42,540 nucleotides of DNA, taken from assembly GCA_019038695.1 (NCBI GenBank), contig JAHOYZ010000011.1, forward strand, positions 1 through 42,540, in the 5' to 3' direction. The position numbers and the translations under genes were made by a program. Positions within the stretch are counted from its first letter, which is position 1. Every line of letters begins with the position of its first letter. The stretch comes from Candidatus Zixiibacteriota bacterium (GTDB lineage Bacteria > Zixibacteria > MSB-5A5 > GN15 > FEB-12). The notes under the pieces were generated by a model. The model did not search any database. It was given only the letters and a program-made list of their open reading frames with translations, and was not told the DNA's origin. Positions 25,852-37,374 of the stretch are shown one piece after another.

Positions 25852-28059
25852 TTACGGACAGACAGGCGGAGCCGTACCGCCAGTGAACAGATAGGCCACC
25901 AACGTGGTCAGGTCTATGATGTTGATGTCCCCGTCTGGATCCCCGGTAATGTTTGCTTCGGCCGGACACGATAGAATACTCTCCCCGACAAAGAGATAGC
26001 TCACGAGACGGGTCAAGTCGGAGATATTAACCAGATCGTCGGGGTCACCATCAACATTGCCGTGCCTGCCGTAGCAGCAGCACTCGTCCCCCACGCCATC
26101 GGAGTTGGAGTCGTACTGATCAGGATTGGATTTATCGGGACAGTTGTCCACCGGACAATTGTTCGCGGCATAGCCAGGATTCCCGAAGCCGTCACCATCA
26201 GTATCGGTACACTCGTCGCAGACATCTCCGACCCCGTCTATGTCGGTATCATTTTGGAGCGGATTGGGAATGTCAGGACAATTGTCGTCCGAACAGATGT
26301 TGTCTGCAAAGCCGGGATCACCGGCTCCGTCGTTGTCGCTGTCGGTACACTGGTCACACAAGTCCCCTTCGCCATCGCCATCAGTGTCGACCTGATCCGG
26401 GTTGGCAAGGGCCGGACAGTTGTCATCCCAGTTGGGTAAACCATCGCCGTCAGGATCATTTAGTAGAACCGTCACTTCAAACAGGCAAGTATCGGCGTTT
26501 TCGGTCTGATCGGTTGCGATCAGTTCTACGGGCGTGTTGCCCAGCGCGAAAAACACTCCAGGCGGTCGACTGTATGCGATCTGCACGATCGAGCAGTTCT
26601 CTTCGGCCATAAGCGGAAAGTCTACCACCGCTCCGTAGTAGCCTGAATCGTTGTAGACTATGATATCCTCCGGACAAAACAAATCGGGAGGTTCATTATC
26701 ATTGACAATAATATCAAACCAGCCGGTATCAGCATGGCCAGAACCGTCTAAAGCGACAACCTCTACTGTCGTTGCCCCCATTTGAAAGATAGTTCCCGAC
26801 AAAGGCATTGAAATTATATCAACCGGGGAACAGTTGTCGGTCGCATCCGGCTCAAAGTCAACCGTCGCGTAACACTCGCCAGGGTCGGTGCCGACTACCA
26901 GGCTGTCTGGCACATTCAGAATGGGTGGCTCCTGATCAAGAACGGTGACATAAAACATGACAGTATCGACGTTACCGGCTGCGTCGACAGCCACACAAAC
27001 GACTTCAGTGACCCCAACATCAATGAAACTACCCGACGGCGGCAAAACCTCAACGCTCACTTCCTGGCAATTATCATCGGCACTTACGGAAAAATCAAGG
27101 GTCGTCCCGCACAAGCCCGGTTCGGAATTCAGGGTTGTGTCAGCGGGGCAGGATATGGTCGGCGTAGTAGTATCTACGACCGTAATATTGAAACCACAGG
27201 TATCGACATTGCCGGCACCATCGACGGCCACACATACAACGGCAGTAGTCCCGATAGCAAAGGAGGCTCCCGAAGCGGGCTGACAGTTAACTGATGCATC
27301 GGGATTGTCGTCTTCAACCGTTGCGGTGAATTCCACAACGGCACCACACTGGCCGGGAATATTGCCGACGGTAATATCGCTCGGGCAGAAGGCTTGCGGT
27401 GGAATAGTATCGGGCTGAACCAGCAAAATACCGCCGTTGTAGAAATCGATCGCATATACTACTCCCTCGTCGTTCACACACGAACTTGGAATCCCATAAT
27501 AGGTAGGAAACTCAGAGTCGTCAGTTATAAGTGTCTCCGTCAGACCATCAAAGTCATAGACATCCGCCGACGCGTATAGCACATCACCATATCGAGATGA
27601 GAGACTATTGTCGCCACAGTCATACCAGATGAAGCGAATTCCCGCATATTGCCCGGTCAAAGCAGAATCTGCTCCGACCTGACATTGTAGTTCAATTATC
27701 CGGCCAGATGCAGTCGCCCAACAGGCAGGATGATAGGGACCGTTGCTCATGTCGGCTATCCCCATCAAACGTATGCAGCAGGATTCAAAGCCCTTCCAGG
27801 AAAGGTACTCCCAACCACAATCAGTTAGAACCTGCCCGGCCGTTGCTGACTGAAGCGCCAGAGACAAGTCCAATTTCAGCAGGATGTCAAAGCCACCCAA
27901 CTCCGCCGAGATTGAGTTTTCGAGTATCATACCGATGTTGACCACCTGACCGAGTGCTCCGGTGGGAATCCGTTCCATCCTGATGGCCATATCAGCACCC
28001 ATTCCTTTTGATTCAAAAAGGGAAAAGGTCAGTATCAGGCATAAAAGAAGTCGTCTCAT
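25852..28059 (-). CDS. Secreted HYR / thrombospondin type 3 / dockerin-like repeat protein
   Basis: A 735-residue secreted protein. After a signal peptide ([14 protein letters not shown]) comes a cohesin-like or unassigned beta domain with several Cys (about 25-215), then four HYR (hyalin) domains (about 218-545) each ending in variants of [14 protein letters not shown]. After these are three thrombospondin type 3 calcium repeats (about 545-660; [15 protein letters not shown] etc.), and two dockerin type I-like units ([19 protein letters not shown] and [19 protein letters not shown]). No enzyme domain is evident; adhesion or surface anchoring is likely. ATG at 28059 is preferred to 28068 because AAGG lies 9 bases upstream of it but abuts the other. 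No scaffoldin gene is nearby. The promoter at 28156 drives it. Confidence 0.85.
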
Positions 28060-28155
28060 ATTCGGCATCCTTAAGAGGTCTTCTAAGAGTATCGGACATC
28101 GCCAAATATACTGTATCAGTGCGTGGTAGCACTTCTGTAGCTGGTCTCAGTACCA

Positions 28156-30221: not shown

Positions 30222-32111
30222 CTACATCAGACGCAACGACCCGATGCAATGGCCTTCAGAATCACGAATCGGTACCAACAGAATATTGTCAAAACCGTCA
30301 AGGATGGCCTCTTCAGGAATAGTCAAAGTATCTGTCTTTCGACCGGGCGTTTCTTTCCCATCCGATTCAAGAGATACAGTTGCAACTACGTCCTGATCCC
30401 GACAGAAGTACAAGTCGTACCGCCTCCCTCGATCAGCACCAAGTTCTATCTGCCGATTATGTCGCACACTAGAAAAAGTAACAAGCATTCCGTCTCGTTT
30501 GACAACATGCTCTGGCAAGTTATCGAAATCATCGTACTTCACTTCGTCGGGAGTACCCCAGGTCAGCGCTTCGCGAGTTATTGTCGTAAGCAAGTATGGA
30601 CTTTTCCACTTTGAGTAGAAACTTTGATTGGGGAGCATGTCGTACGAACACCCCAGGTATTCGTTTAAGATAAGGCGAAACGTATTTACGGGTGTGAGAC
30701 GATCATGCAGAAGACTGGAATCAATCCCTGGCATATACAAAGCATTCAGAATCGAGTACTTCTCCCTAAAGCAGTTTTTGTTCCATCCATTCCCACTGGC
30801 GCGGGACCTTGTTCCATGATCACCTTGAAATATAATGACGGGTGCAATATCAGATGATCGTTCAATAATGGTCTGTGCCAGGGTGGTTAATCGTGAGTTC
30901 AAGTAAGCCAACTGGTCGGCATAACTCGCCCGATACATTTCTTTGGTTCCACCTAGTTTCTCGTGGAACACCGGATCGTTGAGTGTGAAGGGCCATTCGG
31001 GATCCAGGTGATTACCCTGAGCATCGAACACAAATGGCGGATGTGGGCATAGAATATGGGCAAATACGAATTTCGGTGAGCTTGTCTGACAGACTAGTGG
31101 AAACTTATCCAAAACGGCAAGGACACGATCACGATGCTCTGCATAAGCAGTTTTTCTGGCTGGCACCATGAGAAGTACAGGAGTTGTAGATAACAGAAGT
31201 TGCTCAAACTCATCGACAAGACGCTCCCCGGAAATATAGACGTCTGCCTCTGTCATCTCAGTTGGGTAATGACCTGTCTCAAAAGCGACGATATCATAGC
31301 CAGCGTTCCTAAGCGTGCTTGTCAGCGTATTTTGCCTGATTCGATCCGACATCAATGTTCGGTCACCAGAAGATGGCTCCAGCCCATCAAGACTGTCGGC
31401 ATAATTTAGGTTAAGGGACGACACTAGGGATAATACAGTCTCTGGATAGTTGGAACGTGCCCGATCAACGACATAGAACCCCATATCTTCAAGACCATTC
31501 AGAAACTCCGAATTGTCGTGATCGAATACTTCCTTCAGAACATCGCTCCGGGTATAGGCATCACATACTATGTAATAAATGTCGGGCAGTTGGTCGGGCG
31601 GGTCACACTCAGTTCCGTCTGTTTCCAGAATGACGAGAGGTCCAGGGCGATCCGCCAGCACACTGCCAACACCCCATATTTGAATCAACACCAGGACAGT
31701 GGCGATCACATTGAGAGCACTTGTGATTCCATCCAATTCACGCCGTTGGCGAACAATAGACCAACCTCCGATTATCAGCAGTAAAATCCAGAAAACCAGC
31801 AGCATGATCCCGGATGTAATCTCCGAATCTCCGATCGTGATGCTGATCTCTGGTAATACGTTTTTAACATGACCAAAGGAGAAAAACAGCATAAGACTGA
31901 GAGTCGCGAACAAAGCTCCCTTCCGAAGATTTCGTAAGACGAGCGTAAAGAGAACTGTGACACCCAGAGAGATCGCAGCCACACCCCAGAGAACATCCAG
32001 CACTTCGTCCAGGACTAGTTCGTTTGCGTTCTGGGCAAAAAGGAACAAAACCGGAAACACCCCGAAGAGAACGGGGTGGATAGCGCCGTATTTTTTAATA
32101 AAACTGATCAC
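30222..32111 (-). CDS. Membrane-anchored alkaline-phosphatase-superfamily (sulfatase-like) enzyme
   Basis: A 629-residue protein with about five N-terminal membrane helices (12-30, 42-60, 66-84, 102-120, 134-151) and a large outer catalytic domain. Metal-site candidates are D184 in YIVCDAYTRSD, H352 and H357 in FAHILCPHPPF, and D431-H432 in FQGDHGTRS; T225 in SNYPETVLSL is a possible nucleophile. The topology resembles LTA synthase and other envelope phosphoglycerol or phosphoethanolamine transferases, but the specific substrate is unknown; a phosphodiesterase or sulfatase is also possible. ATG overlaps the stop of the methyltransferase gene by four bases (ATGA), so the two are translationally coupled. 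The last part (about 525-629) has no motif I recognise. Confidence 0.78.
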   Translation of the reverse strand: MISFIKKYGAIHPVLFGVFPVLFLFAQNANELVLDEVLDVLWGVAAISLGVTVLFTLVLRNLRKGALFATLSLMLFFSFGHVKNVLPEISITIGDSEITSGIMLLVFWILLLIIGGWSIVRQRRELDGITSALNVIATVLVLIQIWGVGSVLADRPGPLVILETDGTECDPPDQLPDIYYIVCDAYTRSDVLKEVFDHDNSEFLNGLEDMGFYVVDRARSNYPETVLSLVSSLNLNYADSLDGLEPSSGDRTLMSDRIRQNTLTSTLRNAGYDIVAFETGHYPTEMTEADVYISGERLVDEFEQLLLSTTPVLLMVPARKTAYAEHRDRVLAVLDKFPLVCQTSSPKFVFAHILCPHPPFVFDAQGNHLDPEWPFTLNDPVFHEKLGGTKEMYRASYADQLAYLNSRLTTLAQTIIERSSDIAPVIIFQGDHGTRSRASGNGWNKNCFREKYSILNALYMPGIDSSLLHDRLTPVNTFRLILNEYLGCSYDMLPNQSFYSKWKSPYLLTTITREALTWGTPDEVKYDDFDNLPEHVVKRDGMLVTFSSVRHNRQIELGADRGRRYDLYFCRDQDVVATVSLESDGKETPGRKTDTLTIPEEAILDGFDNILLVPIRDSEGHCIGSLRLM

Positions 32112-33493
32112 AGTCTGGTCATTAGATAAAGGGTTCGTTTGCTGTCACGGATGGGGCTTGTTTGCTTGATATGGAAATGGTCGGAGAAAGCTTTTTCGAA
32201 ATGGGCGCGATCATAGTCCGGAAACACATCTTCGCGGTTAGCCAGCATGCGTTGAATTTGGGAGTCTTCTTTGGGAACAAACTCGATTATCAACGCACGG
32301 CCAATTTCACCGAAAAAACGGCTGATATCACTCAGAGGAACATTGTTCCCGATAGCCAGATGGTGTACCAAAGCCAACGCCATAACCAGGTCGGCCGGAC
32401 CGCGTTGGCGCAATGACATCCTTTCCCGATGCGCCCATCCGAGATCAGGGCTGGGGTTGCTCAAGTCCAGCATCAACGGAAGAAGAAGGTCATCGCCCTT
32501 TTTTCTGCATTCGAGATAATTGGCTTCGACAGCAGAGGAATCCATATCAAATGCTACTGTGTAGGCGCCGCGCTCGGAGGCCAGGCGACTGAACAGACCA
32601 GTGTTGGCACCCATGTCCCAGACTGATATCGGTGTCATGACATTCAGGGACTCCGAAACGAGTTGCCTTTTGTGATCAAGCGCCTCCCGACTATAGTTCG
32701 TGTCGGAATAATAATCCCCCCAGACCGTGTTACCGGGTGACCATTTCAATTTTCTAATTCTGGTTTCCAGTGAATCGATCAGCCCTAGTAGACCGCGTTT
32801 GCTCATTACCCCTTTCCCACCGGTTGTAGTACCCTTGTCGGCAGCTCGTCGCTGGCTCGCGGCGTGCAGGTGGATGTTAGTTAGCAGGGAGAAAGTCATC
32901 CATGTCCTGCGTGGCAGCAACTTGCTGGTCAGGTCAAGGGGTATGCCGTCGATATTAACCCGCAGCAACTGTCCCAGCCTGATATCACAGTAAGCCATCA
33001 GGGCTAACGGAGCAAGGAAATGACGACAGAACTGATTATAAGCAACCCAGGGTGTTCCTTCTTCATAACGGTCGAAGGAAAGATTATCGATCAGTACCGG
33101 TTTCCCTTTGAGAAATTGAATGTTATACGCACTCGCATCCTTAAGCGACATACCGTGTTCAAGGGCGAGCTTCTGGATAGCAAGAGTTGTCAGGGCAGAG
33201 TCTTTAAGCTGGCCAAAACACCATTCGTATGGGTACGAAACGAAGGGTACTTCCTCTGGTTTCAGAATACGATCAGCCGTCTCAGGATCATGAGGAGGTA
33301 TATCAACCTCCTCGAATGACACAACCAATCCCTTGCCGACAAGCGATTCATGCAATCCGGAACTGGTCAATAATTCGAAGTTCTCACGATACTCAGAATT
33401 GACCTGCCGATAGAGTTGCCCCTCCCTAAAGAACACAAAACCTGAAGGGTCGCGAAAAGATCCGGCTACACGCTCGTCACGAAGTGGTGTCAT
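32108..33493 (-). CDS. NoeA-like SAM-dependent methyltransferase with kinase-like N-terminal motif
   Basis: A 461-residue protein. The C-terminal half is a class I methyltransferase: motif I VWDMGANTGLFS (291-302), an acidic end of strand 2 (AFDMD, 314-318), and ADLVMALALVHHLA (367-380). The N-terminal half contains D119-x4-N124 (KDASAYN) and D136 (LIDNLSF), which matches the spacing of the catalytic loop and metal-binding Asp of protein-kinase-like phosphotransferases; that relation is my inference. The whole resembles the nodulation protein NoeA-type family. ATG at 33493 is used because the frame's first codon at 33526 is TTG deep inside the preceding gene. It overlaps the upstream small membrane gene by 17 bases and the downstream phosphatase-like gene by 4. 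Confidence 0.75.
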   Translation of the reverse strand: MTPLRDERVAGSFRDPSGFVFFREGQLYRQVNSEYRENFELLTSSGLHESLVGKGLVVSFEEVDIPPHDPETADRILKPEEVPFVSYPYEWCFGQLKDSALTTLAIQKLALEHGMSLKDASAYNIQFLKGKPVLIDNLSFDRYEEGTPWVAYNQFCRHFLAPLALMAYCDIRLGQLLRVNIDGIPLDLTSKLLPRRTWMTFSLLTNIHLHAASQRRAADKGTTTGGKGVMSKRGLLGLIDSLETRIRKLKWSPGNTVWGDYYSDTNYSREALDHKRQLVSESLNVMTPISVWDMGANTGLFSRLASERGAYTVAFDMDSSAVEANYLECRKKGDDLLLPLMLDLSNPSPDLGWAHRERMSLRQRGPADLVMALALVHHLAIGNNVPLSDISRFFGEIGRALIIEFVPKEDSQIQRMLANREDVFPDYDRAHFEKAFSDHFHIKQTSPIRDSKRTLYLMTRL

Positions 33494-33713
33494 CGTCTCG
33501 TTTGGATCGGGAGAATAAAGTGGCAATAAACAAACTAACTCGTTTCCAGTATATCTTCAGTGTGAAAAGTGCGCCCAGTAAACCCGCCAGTAAAATCTGG
33601 ATCAGGTAGCTACCTGTCGACGGATCAACGTAGGCGTGAGCATCATCTGTTAGTAATAGCATAATGGTAAACCCGCCAATCAGGCGGGATATTAACAAAC
33701 CGACGTTACGCAT
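33477..33713 (-). CDS. Small membrane protein with YVDPSTGS motif
   Basis: A 78-residue protein with an N-terminal signal or membrane segment (LLISRLIGGFTIMLLL), the motif AYVDPSTGSYLIQ (27-39), a second hydrophobic helix (ILLAGLLGALFTLKIYW) and a basic, charged tail (SRSKRDDD). Short proteins with a Y-[IV]-D-P-x-T-G-S segment occur beside surface-polysaccharide or membrane transferase genes in many bacteria as far as I recall, with no known function. It starts with GGAGGG 7 bases upstream and is the first gene of the three-gene cassette with the methyltransferase and the phosphatase-like enzyme. Confidence 0.75.
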   Translation of the reverse strand: MRNVGLLISRLIGGFTIMLLLTDDAHAYVDPSTGSYLIQILLAGLLGALFTLKIYWKRVSLFIATLFSRSKRDDDTTS

Positions 33714-33873
33714 TAGAATCCCTCCACAGATGAAGCAGACGCGACCGAGAATACATCAGCCGTTCCCGAAACGACCGTTTTCCGATAAACAATCACTTTG
33801 TACAATCCCTGCGGAACAACATAGAAGCCGTCAATACCGAGAACAAGGTTTTTATGACTCTGGCGTGAAGGTG

Positions 33874-33914
33874 TAAGAAAAAAAGGACTCTCTTCACCGT
33901 GAAGAGAGTCCTTT
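33874..33914 (-). terminator. Rho-independent terminator of the minor-pilin operon
   Basis: A perfect 14-base inverted repeat, AGGACTCTCTTCAC (33884-33897) and its complement (33899-33912), with a one-base centre, so the loop opens to a few bases. On the minus strand a run of T residues follows. It lies about 35 bases after the last pilin gene. Confidence 0.9.
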
Positions 33915-33947
33915 AGTTTCGAGTGGAATTGACCAACTGAATAAAGT

Positions 33948-35120
33948 CTACAGAGTCTCAATCCATGCTACGGCAATCATTTCTCCCGTAGTCCCTTTGG
34001 TGAAGCTGCCAAGCATTCGGTCGAAGTGAAAACATGCGCCTTTATCGAGCTTGATCGTGTTACCCACCAGTGACCCGAAAGCCTGGGTCGTCTGGTCGTA
34101 TTGAATATGGGCATTGGGACCATAGAAAGCGCCGTAGAAAATGTTGTCCTGATTAAACGTGAGAGCTGAACCTCGTGAGAATATCATGAGATCAGATGGC
34201 GCTCCTCCATCATTCATAGTCGACGCTTGATCCAGGTGAATATCACCGTTGACGTATATGGTCACATTTGCACCTGGAGCTAATGACAGGTTCGAGCCTT
34301 GCCCCAGGGAAATATCATTGAAGTAATATACGCCCGACGATAGCACGATATTGGAGTAGGAACCGGCGGTAAGATCCTTGGTTCCGTTATTGTAGGTAAA
34401 TCCACTACCTGTTATTCCGATAGTCGCGATGCTGTTTGTACGAGCCCAATCGTATTCGGAACTCGGAATTAGATCGAGGTCCACCGAATCAACCGTTGAA
34501 CTCGTGTCACCATTAACGACATTGCCGCTTCCCAAAGTAATACCGCCCGCGGTAGCAACATTGATACTCCCACCAAAGTTGACATCTTTCGATGAACCGA
34601 TTGTACCGTTCGAACCAATATCCCCCATAGAATCCAGGACAGTGGTCGCATAGGTCCCTGAGTCAGAGTTGTAGGAGTCGGTACAAGTGTTTCGATCGAA
34701 GAATATCCCGGCATCAGCGAATAGCCCAAAGCTAAAGGGGGTTTTGTAAACCGGTATCGTCTCGTACTCGACGGCTGCTGCACCACCATCAACTACCGCG
34801 GTAGACGTAATCAGGACCGTATCAAATAACGTGCTGTCACCAGTCGAATCAACTAGCGTTACCGTATAGAATCCACCGCCATATTTGACATTGGTGAATC
34901 CAGCTCGCCAGGTATCGTCTGTATTTAGCGTGACGAGAGCCATTTTCACGCCAGCTTCGGCTACGTAGAAAGCACCTTTAGCGGTGGCGTCATTGCCCGC
35001 AAGATCAATGTCGGTGTTCGTCTTGTCTATTGCCGCCAGTCCCAGCAGACTGAGCATACCCAGAAGCATCAGGGCAATGAGCAGAGCACTGCCTTTCTGG
35101 TTGAATAATATTGATATCAT
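33948..35120 (-). CDS. PilX-like minor pilin with beta-rich C-terminal domain (copy 1)
   Basis: A 390-residue protein of the PilX N-terminal family. NQKGSALLIALMLLGMLSLLGLAAIDKTNTDIDLAGN (start of this run only: NQKGSALLIALMLL) gives a short leader, one hydrophobic helix and the conserved AFYVAEAG segment. Residues about 130-390 form a beta-rich region with glycine repeats (SGNVVNGD, YFNDISLGQGSNLSLAPG, GNTIKLDKGACFHFD) similar to the DUF7305 domains found after PilX. It is a close paralogue of the upstream gene. GGAG lies 7 bases before ATG. Roles of minor pilins are in pilus assembly, adhesion or surface sensing. Confidence 0.82.
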   Translation of the reverse strand: MISILFNQKGSALLIALMLLGMLSLLGLAAIDKTNTDIDLAGNDATAKGAFYVAEAGVKMALVTLNTDDTWRAGFTNVKYGGGFYTVTLVDSTGDSTLFDTVLITSTAVVDGGAAAVEYETIPVYKTPFSFGLFADAGIFFDRNTCTDSYNSDSGTYATTVLDSMGDIGSNGTIGSSKDVNFGGSINVATAGGITLGSGNVVNGDTSSTVDSVDLDLIPSSEYDWARTNSIATIGITGSGFTYNNGTKDLTAGSYSNIVLSSGVYYFNDISLGQGSNLSLAPGANVTIYVNGDIHLDQASTMNDGGAPSDLMIFSRGSALTFNQDNIFYGAFYGPNAHIQYDQTTQAFGSLVGNTIKLDKGACFHFDRMLGSFTKGTTGEMIAVAWIETL

Positions 35121-35214
35121 ACTTCTTCTCCGCCTTTCATAATATCTCGGTATCGATCTACCTCATCCAACTAAGGTTCCATGATTTGGACTTCTGAAGC
35201 CTTCTCATAAATTG

Positions 35215-36372
35215 CTAAAGCTCTTTGAATCCAACCACTTCCATACCTCCCGACCCGGAAAGAGTTTTCTTCCCAAGGTTGCGATCGTAATGGAAATTGG
35301 CGCTATTGTGAGCTACAATAGTATTTGCCGCGATGGATCCATAGAATTCTCCCGAGTTCCGCAAGTCGGCATCACCGTCGGGAGAATAGAAGGCTGCCGC
35401 AATATCACCACTGTTCTTAAGAACGAAATCCCCCTGAGAATATATAACGAGGTCAGATGGATCACCGCCTGAATTCATAGATGAAGAATTCTTCATCTCA
35501 ATATCACCAGTAATATAGATAGTGACCTCTGCACCACTGGGAATGGATATCGAAGCGGAGTTCTTGAGGATGATACTTGAGAAGTAGTAAACCCCTCCAT
35601 CAAGCACCAGGTTGCCAGAGCTAATAAGAGCGTTAGTGGCTGGATTGTAACTATAACTGCCGCTAATTCCCGCCGGAGCATTGCTGTTGGTCTCAGCCCA
35701 GGTGAACTCCGAGGCTGGGATTTCGGGCAGTTCCTGATCGGGGGCAGTATCGGATATTGTCCCGGTAACAGTGGCACCCGGGTTGACATCCGCTCCACCA
35801 ACCAGGGAAGTTGCCACGTCCCCCCCAATGACGGCACCGTTCTTGACAATGATGTTACCGTTGGAACCAACATTGGAGTCCGTGTTAAGCCGCGTCGCCC
35901 AGTAGCTACCAGAATCGGAGTTATACGAATCGGTAACAAAACTGTTGCGAACATCCACCTCGTCATCGGCAAACATTGCCCATCCAAAAGGATGAACCTC
36001 GCCGGGAGCTACTACCAACTGCACCATCGCCGAAGCTTCAGATGTCATACCTTGCGAAAGCAAAATAACCGTATCCACCAAAGTTGGATCTACGGTCGAA
36101 TCGGTCAGAGTAACAATGTACTGACCATCGCCGAAACTGACTCCTGGGAAACCAGTTCTCCAGGTAGCGTCGGCGAGCAACTCAACATACGCACATTTGA
36201 CTCCTGTTTCGGCAATATAGAAAGCCTGTTCTGCCTGCACATGGTTGCCCGCAAGATCGATGTCGGTGTTCGTCTTTTCTATTGCCGTCACACCCAGCAA
36301 AGTAAGCATGGATAAAAGCATCAGGGCAATGAGCAGAGCACTGCCCTTCTGGTTCATTATCTTTAAATTCAT
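35215..36372 (-). CDS. PilX-like minor pilin with beta-rich C-terminal domain (copy 2)
   Basis: A 385-residue paralogue of the next gene: identical leader core NQKGSALLIALMLL, then TNTDIDLAGN and AFYIAETG. The C-terminal region again is beta-rich, with VYYFSSIILKNSASISIPSG and SIAANTIVAHNSANFHYDR-type repeats, so the pair arose by duplication and then diverged mostly in the middle. AGGAG is 8 bases before ATG at 36372. There is a spacer of 94 bases to copy 1 and 15 bases to the pilW-like gene. Confidence 0.82.
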   Translation of the reverse strand: MNLKIMNQKGSALLIALMLLSMLTLLGVTAIEKTNTDIDLAGNHVQAEQAFYIAETGVKCAYVELLADATWRTGFPGVSFGDGQYIVTLTDSTVDPTLVDTVILLSQGMTSEASAMVQLVVAPGEVHPFGWAMFADDEVDVRNSFVTDSYNSDSGSYWATRLNTDSNVGSNGNIIVKNGAVIGGDVATSLVGGADVNPGATVTGTISDTAPDQELPEIPASEFTWAETNSNAPAGISGSYSYNPATNALISSGNLVLDGGVYYFSSIILKNSASISIPSGAEVTIYITGDIEMKNSSSMNSGGDPSDLVIYSQGDFVLKNSGDIAAAFYSPDGDADLRNSGEFYGSIAANTIVAHNSANFHYDRNLGKKTLSGSGGMEVVGFKEL

Positions 36373-36387
36373 GATTCGTACTCCTGA

Positions 36388-36960
36388 TCACAGCGTAACG
36401 TTGCGTAAAGTAACCGACTCGACACTGGTTAGTGTTCTGACACCATCGTTGGAGTTGAAATCTTCATCAGGCCGACCCGTTTGTACGACGAGGGTTACCT
36501 GGATCAAAGAGGCACTTGATGCCACATATGAAATACTCTGGACCAGTCCTGAATACATTTCCGGAGGATTGCTGTTGACTCTTTTCATTAGCTTCTTGGG
36601 TCGCAGACCCACCGGTAATTGAGCCACCTCGAAGGCTTCATCACCGTTGTAATCTTCCAGATAGTACAAGACGCTATCCACCGGATTTGTATCACTGAAA
36701 AATATCAACAAGCTATCATTGCCGATCCGGTAGGGTACGTGAGTGCCAACTTTGTATCCGGCCGAGCGCAAAGTCTTGGTGATCTCCTGAATCGTGTTCC
36801 GCGAGTTCTGCTGTAGATCGGAAATATCGCTCTGAGCAATCGATTGATTGTGCATCTTGATATAGAAGTTGTATCCGGCTGCTGTCATGATGCCCGTTAT
36901 AAACAGAGCTGCTAACAGTTCAATAATCGTATGTCCAGTCGTTTCGCTTAATATCCTCAT
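36388..36960 (-). CDS. PilW-like prepilin
   Basis: A 190-residue type IV prepilin. TTGHTIIELLAALFITGIM shows the class III prepilin leader: Gly followed by a hydrophobic helix with Glu at position +5. DISDLQQNSRNTIQEITKTLRSAGYK is the PilW-type segment after the helix. It would be cleaved by PilD-type peptidase and inserted in a pilus or pseudopilus tip complex. It lies 18 bases after the pilV-like gene. Confidence 0.82.
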   Translation of the reverse strand: MRILSETTGHTIIELLAALFITGIMTAAGYNFYIKMHNQSIAQSDISDLQQNSRNTIQEITKTLRSAGYKVGTHVPYRIGNDSLLIFFSDTNPVDSVLYYLEDYNGDEAFEVAQLPVGLRPKKLMKRVNSNPPEMYSGLVQSISYVASSASLIQVTLVVQTGRPDEDFNSNDGVRTLTSVESVTLRNVTL

Positions 36961-36978
36961 GGCATCCTTCCGATCTCA

Positions 36979-37374
36979 CTAGTCCTTTAGAATCAGCGTC
37001 GTATAGTTACGAGAGTGCGGTATGTTCTGAAAATCCGTCCACGTTACGTCTACATCTATGCAATAGACCCCATCGGGGAGCGTAGAATCGGTGGTGTTAT
37101 CCCAGATACGAGTAGATCGATTGAATCGATTCCTGAGTCCTTTAACCACAAATTCCACGGGAATCCCAGGTATCGAATCCTGTGCCGTGTAGAACTCTAT
37201 TTGCTGCTTGATGAGATTAACTGCTGTGGAAGTGTCACGCGCAATGACATTTCCTTCGACTGAAGTCACAAGCAACGGAGCAAGACCCATGAGACCGATA
37301 GCAACAACTATCATAGCCACCATGACCTCAAGAAGACCTACGCCTGTATTATTACAAATCTTGAGTTGTCCCAT
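36979..37374 (-). CDS. PilV-like prepilin
   Basis: A 131-residue prepilin with the leader and helix NNTGVGLLEVMVAMIVVAIG (Gly, then Glu at +5), followed by LAPLLVTSVEGNVIARDTSTAVNLIKQQIE typical of PilV. It is the first gene of the minor-pilin operon: pilV, pilW, pilX2, pilX1. AAGGGAAC lies just upstream of ATG at 37374. No pilus motor, secretin or major pilin gene is in the window. Confidence 0.82.
   Translation of the reverse strand: MGQLKICNNTGVGLLEVMVAMIVVAIGLMGLAPLLVTSVEGNVIARDTSTAVNLIKQQIEFYTAQDSIPGIPVEFVVKGLRNRFNRSTRIWDNTTDSTLPDGVYCIDVDVTWTDFQNIPHSRNYTTLILKD

Follow-up and report, generated by a model that had tools for sequence, protein, structure and literature searches.

A widespread NoeA-NoeB-type gene trio, probably envelope-directed, includes a small YxDPxxGS protein that is also encoded in a rhizobial nod operon

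The window analysed here, a stretch of 42,540 nucleotides from a Candidatus Zixiibacteriota bacterium, contains three overlapping genes on its minus strand, raising the questions of whether they form a single system, whether such a system had been described before, and what it might do. Gene A (33477-33713) encodes a 78 aa protein and has a GGAGG Shine-Dalgarno sequence 5' of its ATG, gene B (32108-33526) has either a TTG start or an ATG at 33493 with a common stop (472 or 461 aa, respectively), and gene C (30222-32111) encodes 629 aa. A and B overlap by 17 bases when B starts at ATG 33493, and the start of C lies inside the stop of B (GTGA, a four-base overlap); the open reading frame list agrees in this with a sequence-only reading of the locus, which had placed three such overlapping frames here. 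That reading had further taken the genes for one unit directed at the envelope, and knew of no described system containing this trio. We found the trio to be a real and widespread system, part of which had been described earlier.

Other features of the window were also noted. A possible gene of 82 aa with a TTG start (33713-33961, minus strand) ends in TAATG, overlapping the start of A by one base, and had no Pfam match. The region directly upstream of the trio (33948-37374, minus strand) encodes two PilX_N/DUF7305 proteins along with prepilin-like proteins, one of which has an N-terminal methylation motif, and looks like a cluster of type IV pilus-like minor pilins. A secreted protein of 738 aa (25852-28068, minus strand) carries four HYR domains and thrombospondin type 3 repeats, with what appeared by eye to be a dockerin-type repeat region at its C-terminal end.

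Relatives of B were retrieved from about 25 phylum-level groups. Where sufficient upstream sequence was available, A immediately preceded B in 87 of 91 loci, and C lay no more than 2.5 kb downstream of B in 39 of 64 loci, with several more having it upstream or immediately adjacent. Ten genomes that were checked all encoded A somewhere. Among them were the genomes of three of the four loci at which A was not adjacent to B; for the fourth (locus L022, genome G056), A was found on another contig. In this same genome (L141 = C139, L150 = C84), A and C were together, with B on a different contig without an adjacent A.

Co-inheritance was assessed in 132 genomes of the phylum to which the window belongs, of which 23 encoded A, 24 encoded B and 28 encoded C. 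All 24 B-bearing genomes also encoded C (Fisher p 1.5e-22), including six in which the two genes were unlinked, and C was present in just 4 of the 108 genomes without B. A and B occurred together 20 times against 4.2 expected (Fisher p 7e-17), though both p-values overstate independence because the genomes are related. In the four genomes with B and no A, B was cut at, or started at, a contig end, and the three with A and no B comprised one contig-end copy of A and two copies with stops. Gain and loss of the trio occurred jointly within genera; for instance, genus g10 included two genomes with all three genes and two with none. The sequence-only reading had set rare co-occurrence as the outcome that would count against it, and the co-occurrence found was nearly obligate. 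With A-B adjacency and B-C co-inheritance both far above chance, it is very likely that the three genes constitute one functional unit.

Some genomes carried up to seven copies of C and a single B. Paralogues of C, each of about 670-690 aa, were seen as a tandem array of four in L147 (G065:C3), and several surrounded a single A-B pair in L149 (G065:C137). Phyla were mixed in the B tree, which required 37 label changes relative to a minimum of 24 and a shuffled mean of 43.2. Horizontal transfer of B is likely, rather than proven, since contamination of genome bins is possible and the tree contained many weak branches; no B was found in phages. Neighbour tallies, which are raw counts without background control, pointed to no single pathway, consisting of mixed genes with a modest glycan-gene content (some glycosyltransferases, GDP-mannose dehydratase, PMT_2 and epimerases), and the neighbours of unlinked C genes were mostly housekeeping genes. 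A large membrane protein, resembling a GT-C glycosyltransferase by eye and lacking a Pfam match, was encoded directly upstream of an unlinked C at L139:6561-8477 and at L140:3613-5523, in two genomes belonging to the same genus.

The product of gene A is, as had been proposed, a tiny membrane protein, consisting of a signal-peptide-like N-terminus that ends in AHA immediately before a Tyr, a single transmembrane segment and a basic cytoplasmic tail. Its YVDPSTGS motif (33609..33632, minus strand) is positioned at the predicted mature N-terminus, on the outer side of the membrane, and residues Y28, D30, P31, S35 and Q39 were invariant in a family alignment of 52 sequences. AxA-like residues preceded the motif Tyr in 58 of 72 relatives, with a few relatives starting at the motif itself; this arrangement resembles a signal-peptidase site, at which A would be cleaved. 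Lys and Arg were absent from residues 1-24 of the mature region and averaged 4.8 in residues 27-46, and under the positive-inside rule this distribution predicts an N-out/C-in topology with the YxDPxxGS tip outside and the basic tail inside. Searches of Pfam and NCBIfam gave no named family for A, its profile retrieved a single relative among PDB sequences as a chance-level match, and text searches for the A motif, and others for NoeA-like proteins, returned nothing further.

Gene B encodes a soluble member of the NoeA family, lacking any transmembrane segment and sharing 36.7% identity with NoeA of Sinorhizobium meliloti, as its earlier description as NoeA-like had implied. The full-length AF2 model (61 sequences) had a pLDDT of 94.3. 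B had also been described as a two-domain methyltransferase, which was correct with respect to the methyltransferase and overlooked the nature of the other domain, namely a protein-kinase fold. This N-terminal domain (32816..33487, minus strand) was folded alone (pLDDT 95.6) for the fold search, because a search with the full-length model gave mainly methyltransferases, the one domain filling the list. Its leading Foldseek matches were mostly kinases, including AmiN (amicoumacin kinase), PknG, PAK1, RioK1 and AceK, and VIA comparisons with kinases gave Z 9.2 over 185-189 residues with an rmsd of 4.2-4.7. A Z near 9 represents moderate support, yet nearly all of the leading matches were kinase-fold chains. 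Residues D117, N122, D134 and R27 (model numbering) were invariant in the 61 sequences; following PMC9758233, the first three are the equivalents of PKA D166, N171 and D184, whilst R27 replaces the usual catalytic Lys (PKA Lys72). Both the kinase-domain assignment and the Arg-for-Lys substitution had been published for Lani_1194, a homologue of B (PMC9758233). No named family was found for this domain in Pfam or NCBIfam, and its profile detected no relative among PDB sequences. Kinase activity of B appears probable.

The C-terminal domain of B (32111..32731, minus strand) was assigned as a class I SAM methyltransferase from Pfam Methyltransf_23, detected in 33 of 61 family members, and from its structure neighbours ChlM, MePCE, NodS and BCDIN3D (Z 17-18.6). 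WbdD ranked second in the Foldseek search with the full-length model. The class I enzymes close to this domain thus include the phosphate methyltransferases MePCE, BCDIN3D and WbdD, and their high rank among the class I structures is a weak indication that the acceptor may be a phosphate.

Gene C encodes a member of the NoeB family with five transmembrane peaks followed by a large domain, in keeping with the multi-pass alkaline-phosphatase-superfamily enzyme that had been recognised from the letters alone. Pfam Sulfatase matched the C of the window with E 4.4e-5 and 23.4 bits, below the cut-off of 25, and matched 24 of 30 family members at E 0.001. The metal-ligand residues D184, H357 and D431, which would be expected of an alkaline phosphatase/sulfatase domain, were invariant, and T225 was present in at least 90% of sequences. 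The codon of T225, the putative nucleophile, lies at 31437..31439 (minus strand), and in a profile alignment to the S1-19 sulfatase 9hh2 this residue aligned with the formylglycine position. The C/S-x-P-x-R (CxPxR) motif of S1 sulfatases was absent from C, the position instead reading T225-V-L-S-L. This is consistent with a phosphotransferase or phosphodiesterase that uses a Thr nucleophile, as opposed to a sulfatase. LtaS and EptA resemble C in having five N-terminal transmembrane segments, an extracytoplasmic alkaline-phosphatase-superfamily domain and a Thr at the putative nucleophile position, but profile similarity was local only: the LtaS profile matched over 74 positions (E 2.6e-5), and the EptA alignment was not significant and left the nucleophile outside. 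One C homologue is named 'LTA synthase family protein' in its NCBI record. Together, the signal peptide and transmembrane segment predicted for A and the membrane-anchored, outward catalytic domain predicted for C agree with the envelope direction that had been suggested, and we regard the trio as likely to be envelope-directed.

The proposition that no described system holds this trio did not stand. In the nod-box n5 operon of S. meliloti pSymA the gene order is nodL, a 71 aa ORF corresponding to A, noeA (B) and noeB (C). The 71 aa ORF, annotated as 'hypothetical protein', holds ...AHAYLDPGTGSMLVQ..., and its YLDPGTGS-bearing frame overlaps noeA and is followed by noeA and noeB in the same order as in the window, with noeB aligning to the C of the window at 19% identity. 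The ORF was found on 61 rhizobial plasmid records, the same number as hold B in rhizobia. In contrast to the n5 operon, the trio of the window has no adjoining nodL, and instead has type IV pilus-like genes and an MFS transporter next to it. PMC9048898, citing Ardourel 1995, counts three host-range genes in the operon, namely nodL, noeA and noeB; as cited, the 71 aa ORF carries no gene name. A natural strain whose noeA is truncated was unable to nodulate 17 of 27 Medicago truncatula genotypes (PMC4053727), and we found no paper assigning a biochemical function to noeA or noeB.

A 2022 survey of Legionella kinases (PMC9758233) had likewise already covered the kinase-methyltransferase and its conserved neighbours Lani_1193 and Lani_1195, reporting a conserved upstream gene in 65%, and a downstream gene of alkaline-phosphatase fold in 38%, of 816 neighbourhoods, and the retention of both domains in 94% of kinase-domain homologues. 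Nod-factor or envelope modification, or an effector function, were proposed there. The Lani_1193-1194-1195 cluster of L. anisa resembles the window in that a kinase-methyltransferase is flanked by conserved upstream and downstream genes, and L. rowbothamii and L. tucsonensis encode A-B-C in the order of the window, from which we infer that Lani_1193 is an A. B shares with the NoeA/Lani_1194 family the kinase and methyltransferase folds, the D/N/D residues with Arg for Lys, and the conserved neighbours. The survey, however, regards the L. anisa trio as probable effectors, and its main text gives no description of the YxDPxxGS protein. What is new here is the recognition of A as a near-obligate partner of B with an extracytoplasmic YxDPxxGS motif, the finding of A in the nod operon, and the three-way co-inheritance.

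A mechanistic precedent is offered by WbdD of Escherichia coli O9a (PDB 4azs), in which a kinase and a methyltransferase on one chain phosphorylate and then methylate the non-reducing end of the O-polysaccharide, yielding a methyl phosphate (PMC3482155). WbdD resembles B in combining both enzyme domains on a single chain and acts on an envelope glycan, but its domains are ordered methyltransferase-kinase-coiled coil, as opposed to kinase-methyltransferase in B, hence B is not a WbdD; WbdD moreover works with an ABC exporter, in place of A and C. The WbdD precedent and the kinase fold with its invariant D/N/D residues are the grounds for a WbdD-like, kinase-then-methyltransferase reading of B. 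We give roughly even odds (about 0.5) to our leading explanation, in which the cassette is a self-contained module of NoeA-NoeB type that modifies the envelope, with a WbdD-like B, A as tether and C acting outside. Under this model, B would work at the cytoplasmic side of the membrane, phosphorylating a hydroxyl on a glycan, on a lipid-linked sugar or on a lipid head group, and would then methylate the same substrate, most plausibly on the new phosphate in the manner of WbdD. A, with its outward Y[LIV]DPxxGS tip and basic cytoplasmic tail, would tether B to the membrane and, through contacts with B and C, couple the inner and outer steps, and C would use its Thr nucleophile outside to transfer or remove a phosphoryl group on the product of B. 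The occurrence of several C paralogues per B suggests that C may set the acceptor. That the product is a methylphosphate is a tentative proposal. Points that count against the model are the mixed gene neighbourhoods with their modest glycan-gene content, the placement of unlinked C genes in housekeeping surroundings, the Arg that stands in for the usual catalytic Lys of B, and an EptA alignment that did not reach the nucleophile of C.

Several other explanations were weighed against this module. B might instead methylate a sugar hydroxyl directly, its kinase domain being a pseudokinase or a transferase of another group (e.g. AMP) and C a phosphodiesterase that trims lipid-linked intermediates, such that no methyl phosphate is formed. 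The atypical kinase motifs of B, with Arg for Lys, would suit this, as would the hydroxyl methylation performed without phosphorylation by E. coli O8 WbdD (PMC3482155) and the existence of hydrolases within the alkaline phosphatase superfamily; the invariance of D117, N122 and D134, however, argues for a metal-ATP site, and the near-universal retention of both domains also speaks against it, leaving this a possible but lesser candidate. It appears doubtful that A and B form a functional pair for which C is a frequent, independent neighbour. Although part of the clade on the NoeA side, and about a quarter of loci, had no C close to B, every B genome in the phylum of the window has C, even where unlinked, C is otherwise rare there, and noeB shares an operon with noeA.

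The suggestion made for Lani_1193-1195, that the trio consists of host-targeted secreted effectors, draws on the scoring of the Legionella proteins by effector predictors (PMC9758233). It is very improbable for the cassette at large, given the signal-peptide-like N-terminus and transmembrane segment of A, the five transmembrane segments and outward domain of C, the co-inheritance of all three genes, and their occurrence in groups for which no host is known, Zixibacteria, Patescibacteria and Chloroflexota among them. A broader version of the envelope-modification module, in which B would load a shared lipid carrier with (methyl)phosphate, A would pass it across the membrane, and the C family would place it on various acceptors as a general tailoring pathway, is unlikely; if true, Nod-factor or surface modification by the rhizobial noeA and noeB would be one specialised use of it.

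The genes noeA and noeB, known as host-range genes since 1995, thus belong to a three-gene unit distributed across about 25 bacterial groups, and the nod operon itself contains an overlooked 71 aa gene. The analysis also supplies predicted catalytic residues, and the role of NoeA and NoeB becomes directly testable in a laboratory rhizobium; their function would matter for many uncultured bacteria, among them Patescibacteria.
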